Positions 28,564 to 62,316 of a stretch of DNA of 64,000 nt are shown in pieces (within the stretch, counting starts at the first letter, position 1; the number at the start of each line of letters is the position of its first letter). The DNA lies in the IMG/VR virus record IMGVR_UViG_3300025132_000028, positions 1 through 64,000 of that record. One strand, 5' to 3'. This DNA is from a virus. The notes below the pieces were generated by a model that worked only from the letters and a program-made list of their open reading frames with translations, searched no databases and had not been told where the DNA came from. Both the position numbers and the translations under genes were made by a program.

Positions 28564-30120
28564 ATGCCCGCTATAGTATCAGACCAATTCAGGATCCTAA
28601 ACGCAGCCAATTTCGTGTCTGATGTTTCAGATTCAAATAATTCGTATTATGTCGTTCTTGGACTCGCGAACCCAACTCAGGTTGGTTTTGGTAGGAGTTC
28701 CAATTGGGATAATTCAACCCCGTATCCAGTAGATGATTTTAATTATTCTAATCATGTTCGCGATACCATGCTTTTTGGTAAGAAAATTACCAAAGACAAT
28801 ATCAGAAGATTGATTAGAAGAGTTGACTGGACGCAAGGTACAATTTATGAAATGTACCGACACGATTACAGTATTCAAGCTCCATCTCCTGTAACCAACT
28901 CTACTAGATTATATGATGCGAACTATTATGTAATGAATTCAGACTTCCAAGTTTATATTTGTTTACAGAATGGTTCTTCAGGTATCAATACTGTTGGTAA
29001 TCAATCTCTTGATGAACCAACTTTTACTGATCTTGAACCATCTAAAGCGGGTAATAGTGGAGATGGTTATGTTTGGAAATATATGTATACTGTCTCACCT
29101 GGAGACATCATTAAGTTTGATACATTAGAATACATCCCGATACCAAATGATTGGGAAACGGTTACGGGTCCTGTTGCATCTGTTAGAGATAATGGAAACT
29201 CGGATGTAAACCTGAACCAAATTAAAACAGTTTATATTGAAAAACAAGGTGCGGGATATGGTATTGGGCAAAACCAACCCGTTGATATTCTTGGCGATGG
29301 AACAGGAGGAAAGGCAGTTCTATCTGTAGATTCTTCAGGTAAAGTTACTAGTGCTACTGTATCATCTGGTGGTAGTGGTTATTCTTTTGGTATTATTGAT
29401 TTATCTTCAATTAATACTGGATCTATTACTGACAGAGCATTCTTAATTCCAATCATCCCACCAACAAAAGGACATGGTTTTAATGCATATAATGAATTAG
29501 GTGCTGACAAAGTTTTGATTTATGCTCGTTTTGACGACATTGGTGATTTCCCAACTTCTACAAAATTTGCACAAGTTGGTCTACTTAAGAATCCACTTTC
29601 TGTTGGTTCAACATCTGTACAGTCTTCAAATTCATTTAGTTCTACAAATGCGATCGTCTTAAATACAATTTCTGACGTCACGCAAATTTCAGTAGGATCT
29701 AAAATTTCTCAAACTATTGGTACTGGTGTTACTGCCTTTGGATGGATAACATCTTTTGACAATACAACAAATGTTGTTAGATACGCTCAAGATAGATCTT
29801 TATACTTTAATCAGTCTACAACAAATCAAGAAGATGACCCATTTGCTTCTCGTCAATCTTTTATAAAACATGCTTTTACAAGTGCTGTAGCGAACATCAC
29901 GATTGGTTCTGCAAGTTGCACAATCAACACAGGATTTACTGGTATTAATACAGTAGGTACTTCAGGTGCTCTAGTCGATCTTGGAATTAACTTCACAAGT
30001 GGTCTTTCTGGTCCAGAAATTGAAGTTTCATCTGGTGAGCTTATATATATTGATAACAGGCAAACCGTTTCGAGGAACCTGAGACAAAGAGAAGACGTAA
30101 AAATCGTACTGGAATTCTAA
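28564..30120 (+). CDS. 8: baseplate wedge subunit gp8
   Basis: 518 residues; T4 gp8 has 334. Gp8 is a dimeric wedge protein that binds gp7 and gp10. Recognised by position and by the conserved start (IVSDQFRILNAANFVSDVSD), SNWDNSTPYPVDDFNYSNHVRDTMLFGKKIT at about 54-85 and WTQGTIYEMYRHDYSI at about 92-107. The extra length is partly a beta insertion at about 215-285 (GAGYGIGQNQPVDILGDGTG, SGGSGYSFG), the same G-x-G-Y motif seen in the giant protein. It has its own late box and stops nine bases before the next gene. Confidence 0.9.
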   Translation: MPAIVSDQFRILNAANFVSDVSDSNNSYYVVLGLANPTQVGFGRSSNWDNSTPYPVDDFNYSNHVRDTMLFGKKITKDNIRRLIRRVDWTQGTIYEMYRHDYSIQAPSPVTNSTRLYDANYYVMNSDFQVYICLQNGSSGINTVGNQSLDEPTFTDLEPSKAGNSGDGYVWKYMYTVSPGDIIKFDTLEYIPIPNDWETVTGPVASVRDNGNSDVNLNQIKTVYIEKQGAGYGIGQNQPVDILGDGTGGKAVLSVDSSGKVTSATVSSGGSGYSFGIIDLSSINTGSITDRAFLIPIIPPTKGHGFNAYNELGADKVLIYARFDDIGDFPTSTKFAQVGLLKNPLSVGSTSVQSSNSFSSTNAIVLNTISDVTQISVGSKISQTIGTGVTAFGWITSFDNTTNVVRYAQDRSLYFNQSTTNQEDDPFASRQSFIKHAFTSAVANITIGSASCTINTGFTGINTVGTSGALVDLGINFTSGLSGPEIEVSSGELIYIDNRQTVSRNLRQREDVKIVLEF

Positions 30121-30129
30121 TCTGAGACA

Positions 30130-33100
30130 ATGCCACAAAGAACCAATTTAAATATTAATCCATATTATGACGATTTTGACGCAGAAAACAATTACTATAG
30201 GGTATTGTTCAAGCCTGGTTTTCCAGTTCAGGCTAGAGAATTAACTACATCTCAATCTATTCTTCAGAATCAGATTGAGAAATTTGCTAGACATACTTTC
30301 AAAGATGGATCTGTTGTAATACCTGGTGGAGTTAGTTATGATTTTGATTATCAATCAATTCAGATTGAATCAACTTTCCTTGGTTTGAATGTTGGTGATT
30401 ATATTACATCTTTTATAGGAAAAGAGATTAGAGGTCAACAAACAGGTCTTGAAGCAAAGATTGTAAATGTTCTTCTTTCTTCGCAAACATCGAGTGGTAA
30501 TATTACTCTTTTCATAAAATATACTTCTGGTACATCTGGTAATCAAGTAGGTGCTTTCCAAGACGGAGAGACTTTAATTACTGAAGAAAACGTTGTATAT
30601 GGAAATACAACTATTTCTAGTGGAAACACTTTTGCAGTTACTATTGCAACTAATGCAGCACAAATAGGTTCTGCTGCTCACGTAGATGCTGGTACTTTCT
30701 TCTTCAGAGGTTATTTTGTTGATGTTAAAAAGCAAACAGTAGTTTTAGACGAAGCCGACGATACCCCTTCATACAGAGTTGGTCTTCAAATTAGTGAAGA
30801 GATTGTAAACGCAAAGCAAGATAATACTTTATATGATAATGCAAAGGGTTTTACTAACTTTGCTGCTCCTGGTGCTGATAGATTTAAAATCCAAACTACT
30901 TTAGTTAAAAAGAGTCTTACTGATCTTAATGACTCAAGTTTTATTGAACTCTTAAGAGTTGACGAAGGTGTACTTTTAAATGTACCCAATAAACCAGCGT
31001 ATTCTGTTATTAAAGATTATATTGCTGAAAGAGATTTTGAGAGAACTGGTAACTTCTTCGTTGAACCTTTTGATATTACTTTCCATGAGTGTTTGAATAA
31101 TAGAAGAGGTAATAATGGTCTGTTTTATGATAATCAAGTAACTGATGAAGGTGCTGTTCCTTCTAACGATTTAGCTTGTGTTTCTGTAGGTTCTGGTAAA
31201 GCATATGTAAAAGGTTATGATATTGATAGACCTGTTGCAACAATTTTAGATATTCCAAAACCAAGAACAACTCGTAAAATTGAAGATGCTTTTGTTCCAT
31301 ATAATCTAGGTAGTCAAGTTCAAGTAAATAATGTTTATGGACATCCTGCAATTAAGAGAGAAGTTCAATTATACAGTCAAAGATTAGGTGCTAATGGAAC
31401 TACTCTTGCGGGTGAAAGAATTGGTGATTGTAGGTGCTATTCTTTTAATTTAACTTCTGGAGAATACTTATCTCCTAAAACTCCATTTACTTTATTTGTT
31501 TATGATGTAACATTATATCAGAAGTTACATCTTGCTAATCCTCTCAGTGCTGCTCAACTTCCTGCTGGTGCATATATTACAGGTCAATCTAGTGGTGCAT
31601 CTGGATATGTAACCGCAGCTGGTACTGGAAGTGCCAAAGTCTTTGTAAGAGATACAAGTGGAACTTTCATCCAAGGTGAAACAATTTATATTAATGGCAT
31701 TAAAGAGAATGCTAGAAAAACTTTAGATGTAAGAGTATATGATAGTACTGATGTAAAATCTGTTTATCAACAAGCTTCTGCATTAGGTCTACAGGCAAAT
31801 TTCTATGGTGATGTACTTTTAGTAGGTCAACCTGTTCCTGGATTTAAAGAAACAGACCAATTTAATATTACTGCTGCTGGTAAAGTATCAATTAACAGTA
31901 AAACTCTTACTGGTATTAAAACAGATTCTTTACTCGCTGTTCAGCAAGTTGGTTTTACAACAACCACTTTGTATAGAGTAAAAGATATTGCAAAAACTGG
32001 ACTTGAAGTTACTATAGAAGCAACCACAGATGTTGTTGGAATTACTACTGGTGCTCTTCCTGCAGCGAATATTACATCAACAATTATTGCTTTTACACCT
32101 ATTGTACAAAATATTAATCAGGATGAGATGTATGTTTCTCTTCCACAAAGTGATGTTGCTACAGTAGATTTACAAAATTCAAGTCTTGAGTTTCATACCC
32201 AACTTACTGCATTAGCAACTAATGGTTCTGGTGAAATGACAATCACTAATACCAGTGGTGTTCAAGGTGCTTTATTTGAAGCATTTGATGAAGAAAGATA
32301 TAGTATTGTTTATTCTGATGGTGTTATTGCAACAATATCATCAAATAAATTTGAATATAACAGTGGTTCAAATACAATCACAATTAAAGGTTTAAGACAA
32401 TCTCAAACTAACGTTGTTGCCAATGTTGTGATGAAGAAACCTCAGTTTAAGGCAAAGAGTAAGGTTGTTAATCGATCACAAGTTGTAAATATTACTAGAT
32501 CTGCAAATAAACAATCTGGATCTACAGCAAATAATAGTTTAAATGATGGTTTGTCATTTAGTACGTTTTTTGGAACTAGAATTCAAGATAAGAAAATTTG
32601 TTTGAATTATCCAGAGGTTATTGAAGTTCTTGCTATTCATGAATCTTTTGATTCTAATGCACCTACATTCGATAAACTAAATCTCACTTCTGTAGAAAAT
32701 GTACAGACTAGTGCTATTATTGGTGAAAGTATTATTGGTAATGATAGTAAAGCAATTGCAAGACTTGTAGCAAAACCTGGTGCTGCTCAAGTAGAGTTTG
32801 TATATTTAACTGATGCTAGATTTATTCTTGGGGAAGATATTTCTTTTAATGAGAGTGATATTGTTGCAAGTATTGATAGTATTGTTAATGGAAGTTATAA
32901 AGATATTACTTACAGATATTCATTAAGTAATGGTCAAGAACATGCGTTCTCAAACTATGCTTCTCTTAGTCGAAGTGCTAGTAGTGGTCAACCTCCAACT
33001 AGACAGTTAAAAGTTGTATTTGATTATTACTCTGTTCCTTCTGGTGATGATGGTGATGTTGTAACTGTAGATAGTTACCCACAGTCTGTGTTTAGAGGAT

Positions 33101-36100
33101 TGATCCCAGATATGGAGTCTGAACGGGATGGTTCTACTACTGGTGGTACAAACGTCTTAGACTTTAGACCTGCTGTTGCCATATACGATCCAGCAACTGC
33201 ATCAGCACCTCCATTTAGTTTTGCATCTAGAGACTTTGGTGCTCTTAATAAACCAGCTCTACCTCTAGCAGTTGGGGAAGGATCTTTAGTAAGTTTTGAA
33301 TATTACTTATCAAGAAAAGATAAACTATTCTTGAATAAAAATGGTGATCTATCTATTGTTCAAGGTGTGCCTGGTGAAGGTGAACCTGACGATTTAGATG
33401 CTGACCATATGTTATTGGGTACTATCAGTTTACCTGCATATACAGATGAAACTGATTCTATTGATATTGATTTAGAAAACCCAAGAAGATATACTTTTGC
33501 TGATATTGCTAAATTAGATAATAAAATTAGTGCTCTTGAAAATTCAGTTACTCTTTCTATGTTAGAAGAGGAAACAAAAAACGTTGACATTAGAGATGCA
33601 ACTGGTAAAGCACGTTTCAAAAATGGTTTCTTTGCTGATAATTTCCAAACTAGTGAACAAATTGATGATGACCACCCAGATAATAAGTGCGAACAGACCG
33701 ATGAAGGTAGCGGTACAATTACACCATTACCATCAAACGCATCTTTAAAAACATTAATTGTAACTAAAGATGAAACAACATCTGCTACTTACGATAGTAC
33801 AACTGATTATGACCTTTTAGATGATAATGTTGTTAAGAGGGGTGACCTCTTGATGCTTAAGTATGAAGAGAAAGAGTGGGTAAAACAACTTGCAGCAACT
33901 GGTGTAAGTAATATTAACCCATTTAATGTTATTACATGGGCAGTTGCAATTACACTAAAACCTGATATTGATAGTTGGTCTAGAAAAATTCAAACTCAAC
34001 AAACTGTAAAGATTAAAGGTAAACAAAAAACAGTAAAGGTTGTTACTAAGCGTTATAAGTGGGTTCGTACTGGTTACTGGTGGGGCTGGTGGGGTCGTTG
34101 GCGTTGGTATTGGCGTCGTTATAGATGGAGATGGTGTCATTGGAGTTGGGGGTACTACTGGTATCGTCGTGGTTGGAGATATGGATGGAGATGGCGTTAC
34201 GGTTACTACAGATATCGTTGGAGATACGGCTATTGGGGCTGGTGGGGCTGGGGCAACCGTTGTATGCGTCGAGTTGCTACTTACACTACTACTTACAAGA
34301 AGGTTGATGTACCAACACCAACGCCTGCAGATAAGGTCGAGAAGATCAAGTCGCAAGCAGAAGAGTATATGCGTTCTAGAAACGTACTTGTTGATGCACT
34401 GTCTTGTAAACCAAAGACTAGGTATTACCACTTCTTTGATGGAAGTAATACTTTGGATATTGTACCAAAACTTCTTGAAATCAAGAATGTTACAGCAGCA
34501 TTCAAAGTTGGTGAAACTGTAATTGGTAAGAGTGGGAAAGCAAGAATTAAGTTCAGAGTTTGTACACCTAACCATAAGAGAGGTAAGTATAACAAACCAG
34601 ATAGAACTTATAGCATAAACCCATACAATACTGCACAGAATATTCCTACGACATATTCTAAGTCTTCGACAGTCTTAAACGTAGACGTCGCTTCGATGGC
34701 GGAGGAAGCACAAGGTTCATTCAGTGGATATGTTGTTAATGGCATGTTACTGACTGGTCAACAGTCTGGTGCGACTGCAAAGGTAAGTCAGATTCGTTTG
34801 GTTTCTGATAAGTTTGGTGATATTCAAGCAACGTTCTTTATCAGAGATCCTCTTGCAAATCCTGCACCTCCAAACAGATTTAAGACAGGTACTAAGCAAT
34901 TTGTTCTTAATACTGATATTAACAACACTAAAGCAGTTCCTGGATCTACCAAGATCTCTTCAGGACAAGCAGATTATAAGTCTACTGGTGTTATTGAAAC
35001 TTGGAGAACGACAAAGTATAAGGTTTACTTCCATAGAGACCCTCTTGCACAGTCGTTTACAACAGATGCTAGTGGTGTATTCCTTACTAGTCTTGACGTT
35101 TGGTTCTATACTAAGGATGAAAAACTCCCAGTATTCCTTGAAGTCAGACAAATGCAGTTGGGTATTCCAACCAGAAATGTTTTAGAATATTCTGAAGTAA
35201 AACTTGATCCAGACCAAGTTACATTGGTTCCTGACACTGGTGCATCTGCAGGTAATAACACTTATAAGACCACATTTACATTTAAGTCTCCTGTATTCTG
35301 TTCTCCAAACACTGAATTCTGTGTCGTTCTCTTGTCTGAGTCTGATTCTTATGAAGTCTTCCTTGCAAGGATGGGTTCTAAGACACTCAACTTTAAGGCA
35401 CTAGGATTAGGTCAGAACTCTCAGCACAGTAAACAGTGGGGTGCTGGTTCTCTATTCAAGTCTCAGAACGGTTCTATTTGGACTCCAACTCAGGAAGAAG
35501 ATTTAACATTCAGACTTAAGAGAGCAAACTTTACAGCTACCTCTGGTACTGTTTATATGCACAACCCAGATCTTGATGTAAGTAATAATTACATTAGAAG
35601 ACTCGATCCCGATTCTTTCCAAGTCGTTTCTAGATCTGTAACTGTTGGTATTGATACAGTCACAAATGGAACTACCATGGCAGGTATTCTTACTACTGGT
35701 AGGAAAATTGGTGAAGCAACTTCTTCTGAAGGTGGTACTTCTGGTAAGTCTTATGTCTTTGGTACTATTGAAAGTACTGGTGGTCCTATTGACCTAACAT
35801 TTGGTTCTTACGCAGGTATTTCTACAGTTGCTATTGGTGGTACTGATTACATCGATGGTCAATATAATAATGTTGATCTGTTCGCTGTTACTGGTAATGG
35901 AGTTGGTGCAAAAGCAAACCTCTTTGTTGAAAATGGAAACGTAACTGCTGCTGGTGCAACTATTGTAGATGCAGGACATGGTTATACTGTGGGTGATATT
36001 ATCGGTATTACAACTGCTGATGCTGGTGGTGCTGGTTCTCAATGTCAATTGTCAATTGAAGCAACTAGTGGTGTTGATAGATTATTCCTAGAAGATGTAC

Positions 36101-37566
36101 GTGGTAACACTTTTGTTACTAGTGAAAAACTTGTTTACTTCAATGATTCTGGAACTAGAGTAGCACTTGCAAACACGACAATTACATTGTCCGCAAGAAC
36201 TGGTCCTACCTCTAATGAAGGTGACATGATAATTGTTTATCTTCCAAATCATGGAATGTATAGTGGATCTAACAAGATTACTATTAGTGGATGTAAGGAT
36301 CTTGCAGATGCAACACAACTATCTGCTGATGTTACTTCTACTAGCACGGTAATTTCTGTTGCTTCTACCATGGGTTATGAAACATTTGAAGGAATGCCAG
36401 TAAGTGCAACAAATCCAGGTTATGTATTAGTTGACGATGAACTTATTTCTTACACTGGTATTGGTGCGGGAACATTAACTATTGGTACTAGAGGTGTTGA
36501 TGGTACAGTTTCTACTCCACACACTAACGGAGAAGAAGTTGACCTGTATGAACTACAAGGTGTATCTCTCAGAAGAATTAACACAACTCATGACATTGAC
36601 CCTTATGAGTTTGATATTGATAACTTCTATATCAGAATTCAGAGAGATCAAAATGGTACAACCAGAAATGATGATGGAACATTGGTTAATGCTCCACTCC
36701 TAAGTTTCGCTGATAGTGGAGCTGCTGGTGGTGATGAAATCGATACCACAACTAACTTGTTGTACTCTAGCATCAAACCTAACTACAGAGTTATTAAACC
36801 TACTGGTAAGACTTCTGTTACTGCACAAGCCAGAACAATCACAGGTACAAGTCCAAGTGGAAATGAAGTCTCTTATGTAGATAAGGGTTATGTAAACATT
36901 GATCTTGGTAATGTTAATGAGTTTAGAGATGTAAGAATGATTGCTTCTAAAGTTAATGAAGACACATATAACACTGAACTATTCAGGAATAAGTCTTTCA
37001 CAACTGCGATCACATTACAAACAACAGATACAAATGTATCTCCAACTATTGACTCAACGGTTGGTGCAACTGAATTTGAATTCTTTAGACTTAATGATCC
37101 AGTCAATAATTATGCCCTAGATGGTCGTGTTAACATTGCTGGTGAAGATCCACATGCATCCGCATACGTAAGTAAGAATGTTTCGCTTGAGAATGAATCA
37201 CAAGCACTAAAAGTGATTATTGAAGCATACAGAAGTGACACATCTGATTTCCGTGTTGCATATCAACTCCAAACAAGTGCTGAAGGTGGTGCTGCTCCAT
37301 GGCGTCTCTTCCCTGGTTTTGATAACTTGAAAGACACTGATGGTAACGGATTAGGTGATGAAGTTATTACTCAATTGAATAATAACGGTAAGCCAGATAG
37401 AAAGATCAGAGCATCTGCTCCTTTATCTGATGAATTCATCCAGTATGAGTTTAATGCTCAGAACTTAACTGAATTCACAGGATTTAGAGTCAAGATTATG
37501 ATGTCTGGTACAAATGCTGCTGATCCTCCAAAGTTCAGATCAATCAGAGCGATTGCATACACATAG
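30130..37566 (+). CDS. DUF4815-like virion protein (2,478 aa) with Trp/Arg/Tyr tract
   Basis: The N-terminal 80 residues (NPYYDDFDAENNYYRVLFKP, PVQARELTTSQSILQNQIEK, FKDGSVVIPGG) match the DUF4815 domain of tail-associated phage proteins. It fills the place of T4 genes 9-12, so it is probably a baseplate appendage or fibre-like protein. TGQ-x-SGA segments recur (about 487 and 1540). Residues 1311-1377 are almost only Trp, Arg, Tyr and Gly. About 1400-1425 (CKPKTRYYHFFDG) is a known tail protein motif. Near 2402 a D-x-D-x-N-G-x-G-D loop looks calcium binding. The C-terminus (FTGFRVKIMMSGTN, PPKFRSIRAIAYT) is conserved in related phages. A terminator follows. Confidence 0.82.
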   Translation: MPQRTNLNINPYYDDFDAENNYYRVLFKPGFPVQARELTTSQSILQNQIEKFARHTFKDGSVVIPGGVSYDFDYQSIQIESTFLGLNVGDYITSFIGKEIRGQQTGLEAKIVNVLLSSQTSSGNITLFIKYTSGTSGNQVGAFQDGETLITEENVVYGNTTISSGNTFAVTIATNAAQIGSAAHVDAGTFFFRGYFVDVKKQTVVLDEADDTPSYRVGLQISEEIVNAKQDNTLYDNAKGFTNFAAPGADRFKIQTTLVKKSLTDLNDSSFIELLRVDEGVLLNVPNKPAYSVIKDYIAERDFERTGNFFVEPFDITFHECLNNRRGNNGLFYDNQVTDEGAVPSNDLACVSVGSGKAYVKGYDIDRPVATILDIPKPRTTRKIEDAFVPYNLGSQVQVNNVYGHPAIKREVQLYSQRLGANGTTLAGERIGDCRCYSFNLTSGEYLSPKTPFTLFVYDVTLYQKLHLANPLSAAQLPAGAYITGQSSGASGYVTAAGTGSAKVFVRDTSGTFIQGETIYINGIKENARKTLDVRVYDSTDVKSVYQQASALGLQANFYGDVLLVGQPVPGFKETDQFNITAAGKVSINSKTLTGIKTDSLLAVQQVGFTTTTLYRVKDIAKTGLEVTIEATTDVVGITTGALPAANITSTIIAFTPIVQNINQDEMYVSLPQSDVATVDLQNSSLEFHTQLTALATNGSGEMTITNTSGVQGALFEAFDEERYSIVYSDGVIATISSNKFEYNSGSNTITIKGLRQSQTNVVANVVMKKPQFKAKSKVVNRSQVVNITRSANKQSGSTANNSLNDGLSFSTFFGTRIQDKKICLNYPEVIEVLAIHESFDSNAPTFDKLNLTSVENVQTSAIIGESIIGNDSKAIARLVAKPGAAQVEFVYLTDARFILGEDISFNESDIVASIDSIVNGSYKDITYRYSLSNGQEHAFSNYASLSRSASSGQPPTRQLKVVFDYYSVPSGDDGDVVTVDSYPQSVFRGLIPDMESERDGSTTGGTNVLDFRPAVAIYDPATASAPPFSFASRDFGALNKPALPLAVGEGSLVSFEYYLSRKDKLFLNKNGDLSIVQGVPGEGEPDDLDADHMLLGTISLPAYTDETDSIDIDLENPRRYTFADIAKLDNKISALENSVTLSMLEEETKNVDIRDATGKARFKNGFFADNFQTSEQIDDDHPDNKCEQTDEGSGTITPLPSNASLKTLIVTKDETTSATYDSTTDYDLLDDNVVKRGDLLMLKYEEKEWVKQLAATGVSNINPFNVITWAVAITLKPDIDSWSRKIQTQQTVKIKGKQKTVKVVTKRYKWVRTGYWWGWWGRWRWYWRRYRWRWCHWSWGYYWYRRGWRYGWRWRYGYYRYRWRYGYWGWWGWGNRCMRRVATYTTTYKKVDVPTPTPADKVEKIKSQAEEYMRSRNVLVDALSCKPKTRYYHFFDGSNTLDIVPKLLEIKNVTAAFKVGETVIGKSGKARIKFRVCTPNHKRGKYNKPDRTYSINPYNTAQNIPTTYSKSSTVLNVDVASMAEEAQGSFSGYVVNGMLLTGQQSGATAKVSQIRLVSDKFGDIQATFFIRDPLANPAPPNRFKTGTKQFVLNTDINNTKAVPGSTKISSGQADYKSTGVIETWRTTKYKVYFHRDPLAQSFTTDASGVFLTSLDVWFYTKDEKLPVFLEVRQMQLGIPTRNVLEYSEVKLDPDQVTLVPDTGASAGNNTYKTTFTFKSPVFCSPNTEFCVVLLSESDSYEVFLARMGSKTLNFKALGLGQNSQHSKQWGAGSLFKSQNGSIWTPTQEEDLTFRLKRANFTATSGTVYMHNPDLDVSNNYIRRLDPDSFQVVSRSVTVGIDTVTNGTTMAGILTTGRKIGEATSSEGGTSGKSYVFGTIESTGGPIDLTFGSYAGISTVAIGGTDYIDGQYNNVDLFAVTGNGVGAKANLFVENGNVTAAGATIVDAGHGYTVGDIIGITTADAGGAGSQCQLSIEATSGVDRLFLEDVRGNTFVTSEKLVYFNDSGTRVALANTTITLSARTGPTSNEGDMIIVYLPNHGMYSGSNKITISGCKDLADATQLSADVTSTSTVISVASTMGYETFEGMPVSATNPGYVLVDDELISYTGIGAGTLTIGTRGVDGTVSTPHTNGEEVDLYELQGVSLRRINTTHDIDPYEFDIDNFYIRIQRDQNGTTRNDDGTLVNAPLLSFADSGAAGGDEIDTTTNLLYSSIKPNYRVIKPTGKTSVTAQARTITGTSPSGNEVSYVDKGYVNIDLGNVNEFRDVRMIASKVNEDTYNTELFRNKSFTTAITLQTTDTNVSPTIDSTVGATEFEFFRLNDPVNNYALDGRVNIAGEDPHASAYVSKNVSLENESQALKVIIEAYRSDTSDFRVAYQLQTSAEGGAAPWRLFPGFDNLKDTDGNGLGDEVITQLNNNGKPDRKIRASAPLSDEFIQYEFNAQNLTEFTGFRVKIMMSGTNAADPPKFRSIRAIAYT
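34060..34260 (+). other. Trp/Arg/Tyr/Gly-rich coding tract
   Basis: Codons 1311-1377 of the 2,478-residue protein. Counted by hand, 67 residues contain 21 Trp, 16 Arg, 13 Tyr and 11 Gly, leaving only six others. Flanks are Lys-rich on the N-side (KIKGKQKTVKVVTKRYK). Arginine is CGT in 10 of 16 cases here while AGA dominates elsewhere in the gene, and local G+C is visibly higher than in the surroundings. Confidence 0.9.
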
Positions 37567-37572
37567 ACTATA

Positions 37573-37600
37573 AAAGACACCTAAATATAGGTGTCTTTTT
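37573..37600 (+). terminator. intrinsic terminator with late box in its loop
   Basis: AAAGACACCT (37573-37582) and AGGTGTCTTT (37589-37598) make a perfect 10-bp stem with a 6-nt loop and a T-run. The loop side reads CTAAATA (37581-37587), which resembles a late -10 box and could start transcription of the next gene at 37610. Confidence 0.8.
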
Positions 37601-37609
37601 AATAATAAA

Positions 37610-38071
37610 ATGTCATCACCTGATCCTGACTTATCAGCTTTTAATGAATTTGCCTTTCAAACTATCTTGGATCAATACCAAGAAGATGAAATTTGGAAGA
37701 TGTATAAAGATCAGCAAAAACTTGATGATCAATTAAAAGAGGAAGAAAAAGAAATTGAATACATTGAAGAAGCAAGAGAAGGCGATGAGGAATTTTCTTT
37801 AATGAATTTTACTGAAGAATTTGATATCAGACCAGTAGCAGATAATCCTGGTCTTTATAAAGATATGAGTACTGGTGCAGTTTTAAATATGGACAATACT
37901 GCTTTTAAGATGTATCAAACTAACAAAATAAGATCTGAAGCAGTCCAAAGAAAACAAGAAGAGACAAATGAAAAAGTTTCTAAAATGGATCTTGAAGTGG
38001 AAGAAATGAAAGGAGATCTTAAAGAATTGAAAGGTTTAATTAGAGATTTGATAAAAGGACTAAATAACTAA
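37610..38071 (+). CDS. acidic coiled-coil protein of unknown function (153 aa)
   Basis: 153 residues. The N-terminus (DPDLSAFNEFAFQTILDQYQ) is polar. Residues 30-65 are nearly all Glu, Lys and Asp (KDQQKLDDQLKEEEKEIEYI). About 110-150 form a heptad-like coiled coil (VQRKQEETNEKVSKMDLEVE, MKGDLKELKGLIRDLIKGL). The middle (FDIRPVADNPGLYKDMSTGA) may be a small globular part. It lies among neck and tail genes, so it may be a virion or assembly protein. No T4 counterpart was recognised; the fibritin (wac) position is near, but nothing else supports that. Confidence 0.6.
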   Translation: MSSPDPDLSAFNEFAFQTILDQYQEDEIWKMYKDQQKLDDQLKEEEKEIEYIEEAREGDEEFSLMNFTEEFDIRPVADNPGLYKDMSTGAVLNMDNTAFKMYQTNKIRSEAVQRKQEETNEKVSKMDLEVEEMKGDLKELKGLIRDLIKGLNN

Positions 38072-60559: not shown

Positions 60560-61036
60560 ATGCCCAAAGCCAGATCTGAACATTATGTTAATAATAAGCA
60601 ACTCTTAGAAGCACTTATTGTTTACAAAAGCAAAGTAAAAGAAGCACTAGAGAACGAGAAACAAAAACCTCGTATCACGAACTATCTTGGTGAGTGCTTC
60701 TTGAAGATAGCAACACACTTGTCATATAAACCAAACTTTGTTAATTATATGTTCCGTGAAGATATGATTTCTGATGGTATAGAGAACTGTGTTCAGTACA
60801 TCAATAACTTTGATCCTGAAAAGTCAAGGAACCCATTTGCTTATTTTACTCAGATCATCCATTACGCTTTTCTGAGACGTATTCAAAAAGAGAAAAAGCA
60901 GATGGAGATTAAGAATAAAATTTTAGAGAAGACTGGTTATGACCAAGTTTTCAAGGTTGATGATAATGTTTTGAGTAATAGTAAAAGTGATTATAATTCA
61001 ATTAAAGATAATGTGCAGTATAGATTGAAAAAATGA
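60560..61036 (+). CDS. 55: late transcription sigma factor gp55
   Basis: 158 residues; T4 gp55 has 185. It replaces the host sigma factor and recognises TATAAATA. Conserved segments are YVNNKQLLEALIVYKSKVKE, YLGECFLKIATHLSYKPNFV, MISDGIENCVQYINNFDPEK and NPFAYFTQIIHYAFLRRIQK, the reduced sigma region 2 typical of gp55 including the aromatic residues that melt the -10. The C-terminus is basic. AAAGG precedes the ATG. It overlaps the next gene by four bases. Confidence 0.93.
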   Translation: MPKARSEHYVNNKQLLEALIVYKSKVKEALENEKQKPRITNYLGECFLKIATHLSYKPNFVNYMFREDMISDGIENCVQYINNFDPEKSRNPFAYFTQIIHYAFLRRIQKEKKQMEIKNKILEKTGYDQVFKVDDNVLSNSKSDYNSIKDNVQYRLKK

Positions 61037-62316
61037 ATACTGAATTTAAGAAGATTAAAATTGCTGTAATTGGAACAGGGACAGCAGGTTGTATTCAGAC
61101 TCTTCAGTTCTCTCAAGAATTAAATTTTCAATATTTTGAACTTGATTGGATTTATGATCCAGAAACTCCCATCTTTGGAATTGGAGAAGCAACTACACCT
61201 CACATTCCTCAGATTTTAAGAAGATCTAAATTTAGTACTGATATGCTTTTTAATGAATTAAAAGGTAGTCTTAAGTATGGAGTCAGGTTTTTTAATTGGG
61301 GAAAGAAAAATAAAAGATTTGAACATGACTTTGGGGTAGGTCAATATGGTATTCATATGGATACAAGTGCCTTAAGTACTTTTACATTAAAACATATAGA
61401 AAAAATTGAAGGAACTAACATTAAAGTTGTTCCTGAAAAAGTAGACACTATCGAATCTTTGCCTAGCGGATGTGTTGTCAACGGACGTAATTATAATTTT
61501 GTTGTTGATTGTAGTGGAAATGAACCTTTGTTATACAAAGATGAGTATATAGAATCTGAATTACCTACTGTCGATTCAGCAGTCATCTACAGGAGAATGT
61601 CTGCTGGCAATTGGAATCATACTGTTCACTTTGCTCATGAAAATGGTTGGATGTTTGGTATTCCTTTGAAAGATCGTCAAACTTGGGGATATACTTTTAG
61701 TAGTAAATTTACTACAGAAGAAGAAGCAAGAGAAGGATTACAAAAAATGCTTCCAGATGAAGATGTATCTACAGCAAAATACGTTACTTGGAAACCTCAG
61801 TTTGCATCTTTTTTAATTGATGATAACGGTGTTTATGCTAGAAATGGAAATGCTGCAGGATTCATGGAACCTCTACAAAGTCTCTCTGGTCTTCATACAC
61901 ATCAAATTTCTAAAGTTTTGGTTGACTATGTAAATGATGATGCATCTAAACAAGATGTGAATACTGCTATTATTAGTAGTGAAAAAGAATGGATTGAAGG
62001 TTTAGCATACCATTATCAAATGGGATCTTCTTTTGATAGTCCATTTTGGGATGATGTTTCAGAGAGAGCAAAGAAGTTTTTAGAAAAAGAAAAATGTTCT
62101 GAGAGTGATATTTGGGATATCTACAAAGAAGATCCCAAAGATGTAGAAAGAGTTACATTAGGTTGCTTTGAGATACTTGATTTGGTACAATTGTCTCATG
62201 GTTTAGACACTCCAACTGCAAGTATTTTTGATCCTTGGAAACTTGCTGATCCTGATTTACAAAGTGTAGAATCATTTTGGGGAAGTCAAAACAGTATTGA
62301 GGATTATTTAAAATGA
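61033..62316 (+). CDS. flavin-dependent (tryptophan) halogenase-like protein
   Basis: 427 residues. The FAD motif GTGTAG is at 14-19, followed by GIGEATTPHIP near 49-59, the conserved GEAT turn. Lys81 in GSLKYGVRFFNWG corresponds in context to the catalytic lysine of tryptophan halogenases. GWMFGIP (205-211) stands where halogenases have GWxWxIP, so the second Trp is Phe. AGFMEPLQSLSGLHTHQ near 285 is the C-terminal FAD/flavin-coupling motif. Bacterial enzymes have about 530 residues; this is shorter. Such genes occur in several T4-like cyanophages with unknown substrate. It overlaps genes 55 and 47, so it is expressed with replication and transcription proteins. Confidence 0.8.
   Translation: MNTEFKKIKIAVIGTGTAGCIQTLQFSQELNFQYFELDWIYDPETPIFGIGEATTPHIPQILRRSKFSTDMLFNELKGSLKYGVRFFNWGKKNKRFEHDFGVGQYGIHMDTSALSTFTLKHIEKIEGTNIKVVPEKVDTIESLPSGCVVNGRNYNFVVDCSGNEPLLYKDEYIESELPTVDSAVIYRRMSAGNWNHTVHFAHENGWMFGIPLKDRQTWGYTFSSKFTTEEEAREGLQKMLPDEDVSTAKYVTWKPQFASFLIDDNGVYARNGNAAGFMEPLQSLSGLHTHQISKVLVDYVNDDASKQDVNTAIISSEKEWIEGLAYHYQMGSSFDSPFWDDVSERAKKFLEKEKCSESDIWDIYKEDPKDVERVTLGCFEILDLVQLSHGLDTPTASIFDPWKLADPDLQSVESFWGSQNSIEDYLK

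Follow-up and report, generated by a model that had tools for sequence, protein, structure and literature searches.

An aromatic tract in the hypervariable insert of a DUF4815-family baseplate protein and its counterparts in other phages

Results

The tract-bearing protein belongs to a known baseplate family

The window, that is, the whole 64,000-nucleotide stretch of marine phage DNA analysed here, carries a tail and baseplate module in which genes for a gp6-like wedge protein, gp8, neck, sheath stabiliser, sheath, portal and gp23 proteins surround one long open reading frame. The features of interest are the following.

28564-30120 (+): T4-type baseplate wedge gp8, directly upstream of the long reading frame (PF09215, E 5e-15; phrog_438, E 2e-148)
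30130-37566 (+): 2478-aa baseplate protein of the DUF4815 / VriC-VrlC family (Pfam, PHROG, tblastn, PDB homologue)
33286-33981 (+): C-terminal part of DUF4815, residues 1053-1284, the best Pfam stretch, ending just before the insert
33967-34065 (+): residues 1280-1296 and 1299-1312, modelled by AlphaFold2 as beta-strands entering the insert
34060-34260 (+): residues 1311-1377, the W/R/Y/G tract that fills the hypervariable insert (sequence; AlphaFold2)
34267-34308 (+): residues 1380-1393, modelled by AlphaFold2 as a beta-strand leaving the insert
34369-34386 (+): MRSRNV motif, residues 1414-1419, conserved in relatives, opening the downstream domain and marking the right-hand insert boundary

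The 2478-aa protein matched PF16075 (DUF4815) with an E-value of 3.2e-59 (201 bits against a cut-off of 30) and PHROG_358, the VriC/VrlC family, over its full length (residues 1-2477, E 0). The family is already known: it comprises at least 1495 deposited phage records, including those of staphylococcal and Salmonella phages, and 369 phage records covered at least 80% of the protein. Its closest cultured homologues are the 'VriC' or virion structural proteins of Synechococcus myophages (S-SRM01, Sf-CH5, S-T4, S-SSM7), which are homologous over the full length with 37-42% identity (S-SRM01, 42% over 95% by tblastn); these cyanophages share the gene order beside gp8, and the gp23 of the window is 74% identical to that of Sf-CH5. 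VriC of Ackermannviridae is also homologous; it has been suggested to form downward-facing baseplate prongs and to resemble baseplate proteins of A511 and phi812 (PMC11721090). ORF65 of phi812 (Kayvirus, Twort-like; PDB 9EUF, 9EUI, 9EUJ and others) is homologous in the DUF4815 region and in the region downstream of it (E 2e-29 by phmmer, E 3e-103 with a profile) but is much shorter, 1152 against 2478 aa. In a fold search a phi812 baseplate chain was the sole match below E 0.001, at a low TM-score, and added little to the sequence comparison. The initial annotation had called the product a virion protein. Homology bears this out: besides the family matches and the adjoining gp8, the homologue ISP ORF36 is annotated as confirmed by ESI-MS/MS and the phi812 homologue is present in baseplate structures. 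We thus take the carrier to be a DUF4815 baseplate protein whose presence in the virion is predicted from its relatives.

One third of the window is occupied by another gene, between those of the gp6-like wedge protein and gp8 (7473-28514, +), which encodes a protein of 7013 aa, rich in Gly and Thr, in which many segments look alike. A record with a closely related gp23, AG-345-L05, begins downstream of the tract site.

Composition of the tract

Read in the frame of the 30130-37566 (+) ORF, residues 1311-1377 are WVRTGYWWGWWGRWRWYWRRYRWRWCHWSWGYYWYRRGWRYGWRWRYGYYRYRWRYGYWGWWGWGNR. The counts first reported for this tract are exact (21 W, 16 R, 13 Y and 11 G in 67 residues), and 61 residues are thus W, R, Y or G, compared with a maximum of 29 per 67 residues in 2000 shuffles of the protein. 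Only 8 Trp are found in the remaining ~2411 residues, and among the other ORFs of the window the runner-up has 5 Trp per 60 residues, against 20 for the tract. The codon usage also shifts as first described, CGT replacing AGA as the main Arg codon (10 CGT and 6 AGA in the tract, 10 and 73 in the rest of the protein). The GC content is 0.54, compared with ~0.36 for the genome, and 50 of the 67 codons have G at position 2. A tRNA was considered as the cause of the codon shift and rejected, the window containing none that could account for it; an RNA element was likewise rejected, as no Rfam match was found within 30000-38000. A tandem-repeat scan returned few repeats (units of 9-12 bases, ~2 copies) and no recognisable array of the kind expected of a low-complexity repeat expansion. 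The tract gave only a chance match to PDB sequences (E 0.49), and no match to phage records by tblastn with the low-complexity filter on.

The tract fills a hypervariable insert

The insert lies between two conserved blocks. The left one, at the end of DUF4815, reads ATxxENVNPFNV...LxPxxDxW and the right one MRSRNV...LKPxTRxYxFFDG, with R1415-S-R-N invariant in 49 relatives. Between them the family carries ~33-135 residues of free composition. In cyanophages the insert is rich in Ser, Thr, Arg and Asn with 0-5 Trp, unlike the tract; in phi812 ORF65 it occupies about residues 610-690, at the same place after NVNPYN...LTPSEDNW, and has an ordinary composition (2 W in 79; KRFWRHNESYYGETEHYLY...), and in Ackermannviridae VriC it has 4 Trp in 88 residues (SKML-39). 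A SPO1-like phage of Bacillus subtilis carries NFYRWWTHADG there. One Synechococcus phage, ACG-2014b (L018), has an Arg-rich insert instead (WRTTWRRRRRRTRTVNTRRRSNWGRGR).

An AlphaFold2 run on residues 1031-1650 with 49 sequences gave pLDDT values falling from ~90 to 41 toward the tract, ~30-45 within it, where no reliable structure was obtained, and above 90 over most of the downstream domain. A full-length model of a distant relative, L177 (see below), was poor overall (mean pLDDT 46) and showed the strand-tract-strand order too. Since this order is modelled in both proteins, the insert is likely to be a beta-hairpin with a variable end. The tract was first placed between ordinary domains, and this agrees with the DUF4815 region before it and the conserved domain after it; we are confident that it represents the expanded content of the hypervariable insert that separates the two.

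Several short-type phages and prophages (L256, L257, L239-L242, L249 and L251; WO, Dolphis, Paenibacillus and others) encode the DUF4815 protein as two ORFs, with the break downstream of both the insert and the MRSRNV-like block; this suggests that a natural domain boundary lies at that point.

The reading frame is intact and loosely constrained

The tract was found in contigs of several other metagenomes, as three distinct haplotypes, all of which keep its composition, its reading frame and the distance of 72 residues between the anchors. For the three haplotype pairs, pN/pS in the coding frame was 0.57, 0.57 and 0.21, compared with 0.15-0.24 for the flanks. This frame had no stops, whereas most alternative readings gave pN/pS values of at least 0.6 and two contained stops. 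All eight variable residues end in or move within W/Y/R/G/H, when 30% of single-base non-stop changes would be expected to do so. Some changes at residues 1353-1359 resemble a single block replacement inside the repetitive tract, and the composition may therefore be kept in part by the mutation mechanism. With the tract intact in independent contigs and pN/pS in the coding frame below that of most other readings, a sequencing error or a different frame, either of which would have undone the initial annotation, can be rejected; as far as the sequence can tell, the tract is real, translated in the frame of the 30130-37566 ORF, and under a constraint looser than that of its flanks, yet present. 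Overlapping genes (160 aa, 34040-34522, +; 206 aa, 33955-34575, -) were judged unlikely because neither frame showed consistent constraint among haplotypes. In one metagenome, two contigs matching the window at 100% end (L005) and start (L008) ~36 bases apart directly downstream of the tract, which may reflect a fault of assembly.

Other phages carry aromatic expansions at the same site

Scanning viral contigs at the DNA level for WGWWGW codons, which gives lower bounds, we found at least two further aromatic expansions at the exact insert site; the majority of the matches listed were chance readings in short ORFs and were discarded. The first (L121/L234) lies in a protein 68.5% identical to that of the window over the whole length. 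The L234 tract has 31 W, 18 G, 8 Y, 7 H and 6 R in ~80 residues, with a GC content of 0.63, and Arg is mostly replaced by His, Gly or Ala, a residue-level comparison that depends on the alignment. The second (L177/L244) comes from a distant DUF4815 lineage with short proteins (~1066 aa), present in one metagenome (IMG/VR 3300045457), and its tracts, YFWYPWYYYGYWNPWYYYNWGWWGWYGWGYGYWN and FFWYPWRYYGWWNPWYFHNWKWWKWYPWKRPYWN, are of W/Y/G/N/P or W/Y/K rather than W/R/Y/G, with almost no Arg. Between these two 88% relatives, 10 of 10 Trp are kept while the non-aromatic residues are 55% identical and several Gly become Lys or Pro. Between the window and L038, every aromatic position remains aromatic. 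Paenibacillus prophages have a shorter Trp-rich version at the site (WGWWDAWW; YQTVWGWWDAWWTGNR).

The expansion of the window and that of L234 are probably shared by descent; that of L177/L244 is separate in origin, and aromatic expansion has therefore arisen at least twice. The initial annotation knew of no comparable tract in any virion protein; at least one separate lineage does possess one, at the same site. From these comparisons the conserved property is aromaticity, of Trp above all; positive charge is not conserved. In the window tract, aromatic and R/G residues alternate, with an excess at lag 2 (p 0.03) and a deficit at lag 1 (p 0.005); the same lag test showed no alternation in the L234 or L177 tracts.

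Trp is enriched in the insert across the family

We then compared the insert with the rest of the same proteins in 19 cluster representatives, leaving out the tract-bearing lineages. Trp made up 2.54% of the insert and 0.43% elsewhere, a 5.9-fold excess that none of 5000 random segment sets reached, and 15 of the 19 clusters had at least one Trp in the insert. Arg was enriched 2.3-fold. A second large sample, from the short prophage-type subfamily and not de-replicated, gave a smaller excess (2.1% against 1.3% Trp). Many relatives function with a short or Trp-free insert.

Discussion

The explanation we favour overall, if with slightly less than even confidence, is that the insert is an exposed aromatic contact loop of the baseplate. 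Variable length and spacers point to a loop that is exposed, exposure being deduced here from this variability. The insert would act as an aromatic contact patch on the surface, its Trp and Tyr side chains carried on a flexible scaffold of Gly, Arg and His (or Lys, Pro and Asn) and stacking against a partner as the baseplate docks on a cell or assembles. That aromatic contact is its role, whether with the host surface or with a baseplate neighbour, is reasonably likely. Contact with the host surface, at a glycan or lipid interface, is by itself a real but uncertain possibility, slightly more likely than contact with a neighbouring subunit.

In that second case the insert would pack against adjoining subunits of the baseplate, such as gp8, further copies of the protein itself or the large product of 7473-28514, and lock the structure before contraction. 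This internal glue would suit a baseplate protein whose aromatic positions are kept among relatives, and the alternation in the window tract is what a two-faced strand would show. We consider it rather unlikely, as the alternation is absent in L234 and L177, and such free variation in length and composition between relatives is unusual for a packed core. The sticky aromatic core joining subunits that was first proposed is therefore retained in part: stickiness fits the conservation of aromatics, but the joining of subunits is only one candidate role.

A near-neutral origin, in which a tolerant loop is filled through slippage or recombination in TGG/GGN/CGT-rich DNA and selection acts only for an open frame, would account for a G-rich tract in a low-GC window, in base composition as in codon position 2, and for the block-like change at 1353-1359 and the raised pN/pS. 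It would not predict Trp enrichment across 19 clusters that include short, non-repetitive inserts, the Trp retained in L177/L244 while their neighbours change, or the 31 Trp of L234, and tandem repeats are very few; we regard it as improbable.

Still less probable is the membrane-disrupting or LPS-binding Trp/Arg segment, exposed or released on contraction, that the initial annotation had suggested. The 16 Arg and 21 Trp of the window tract speak for it, as does the Arg enrichment in relatives. However, Arg is mostly lost in the 68% relative and near absent in L177, and the tract lies inside the protein between segments modelled as structured, with nothing found that would support its release; unlike Trp/Arg-rich cationic antimicrobial peptides, its relatives do not combine Trp with a conserved positive charge. 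Paenibacillus, whose prophages carry a Trp-rich insert, is Gram-positive and has no LPS. With charge unconserved and Gram-positive hosts included, a common cationic or LPS-binding role is disfavoured.

The window also encodes a tryptophan halogenase homologue (61033-62316, +; PF04820, E 2e-42); the L234 phage also has a halogenase, as do 3 of the 7 cyanophages tested that lack the tract, and a review reports the enzyme in 20 of 153 cyanophages (PMC10452541). That it modifies the Trp tract is pure speculation and most improbable.

To return to the exposed contact loop, aromatics have come to fill this loop independently in unrelated phages, and the tract is therefore probably a selected contact surface rather than an oddity of one genome. 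A bolder proposal, that separate lineages convergently made one baseplate insert into a Trp-rich, low-complexity aromatic adhesive with fixed aromatics and drifting spacers, a class of virion contact element undescribed before, is put forward with marked reserve. In the open-licence papers searched, we found no Trp-rich phage baseplate or virion protein and no description of the aromatic expansion, of its repeated appearance at one site or of the family-wide Trp enrichment; among the papers found, none described a role for the central insert of DUF4815. The extreme aromatic versions mark this insert as a place to seek function in phages amenable to laboratory work. Should the insert prove to be a contact element, the means of phage attachment or of baseplate assembly would include a contact surface based on Trp.
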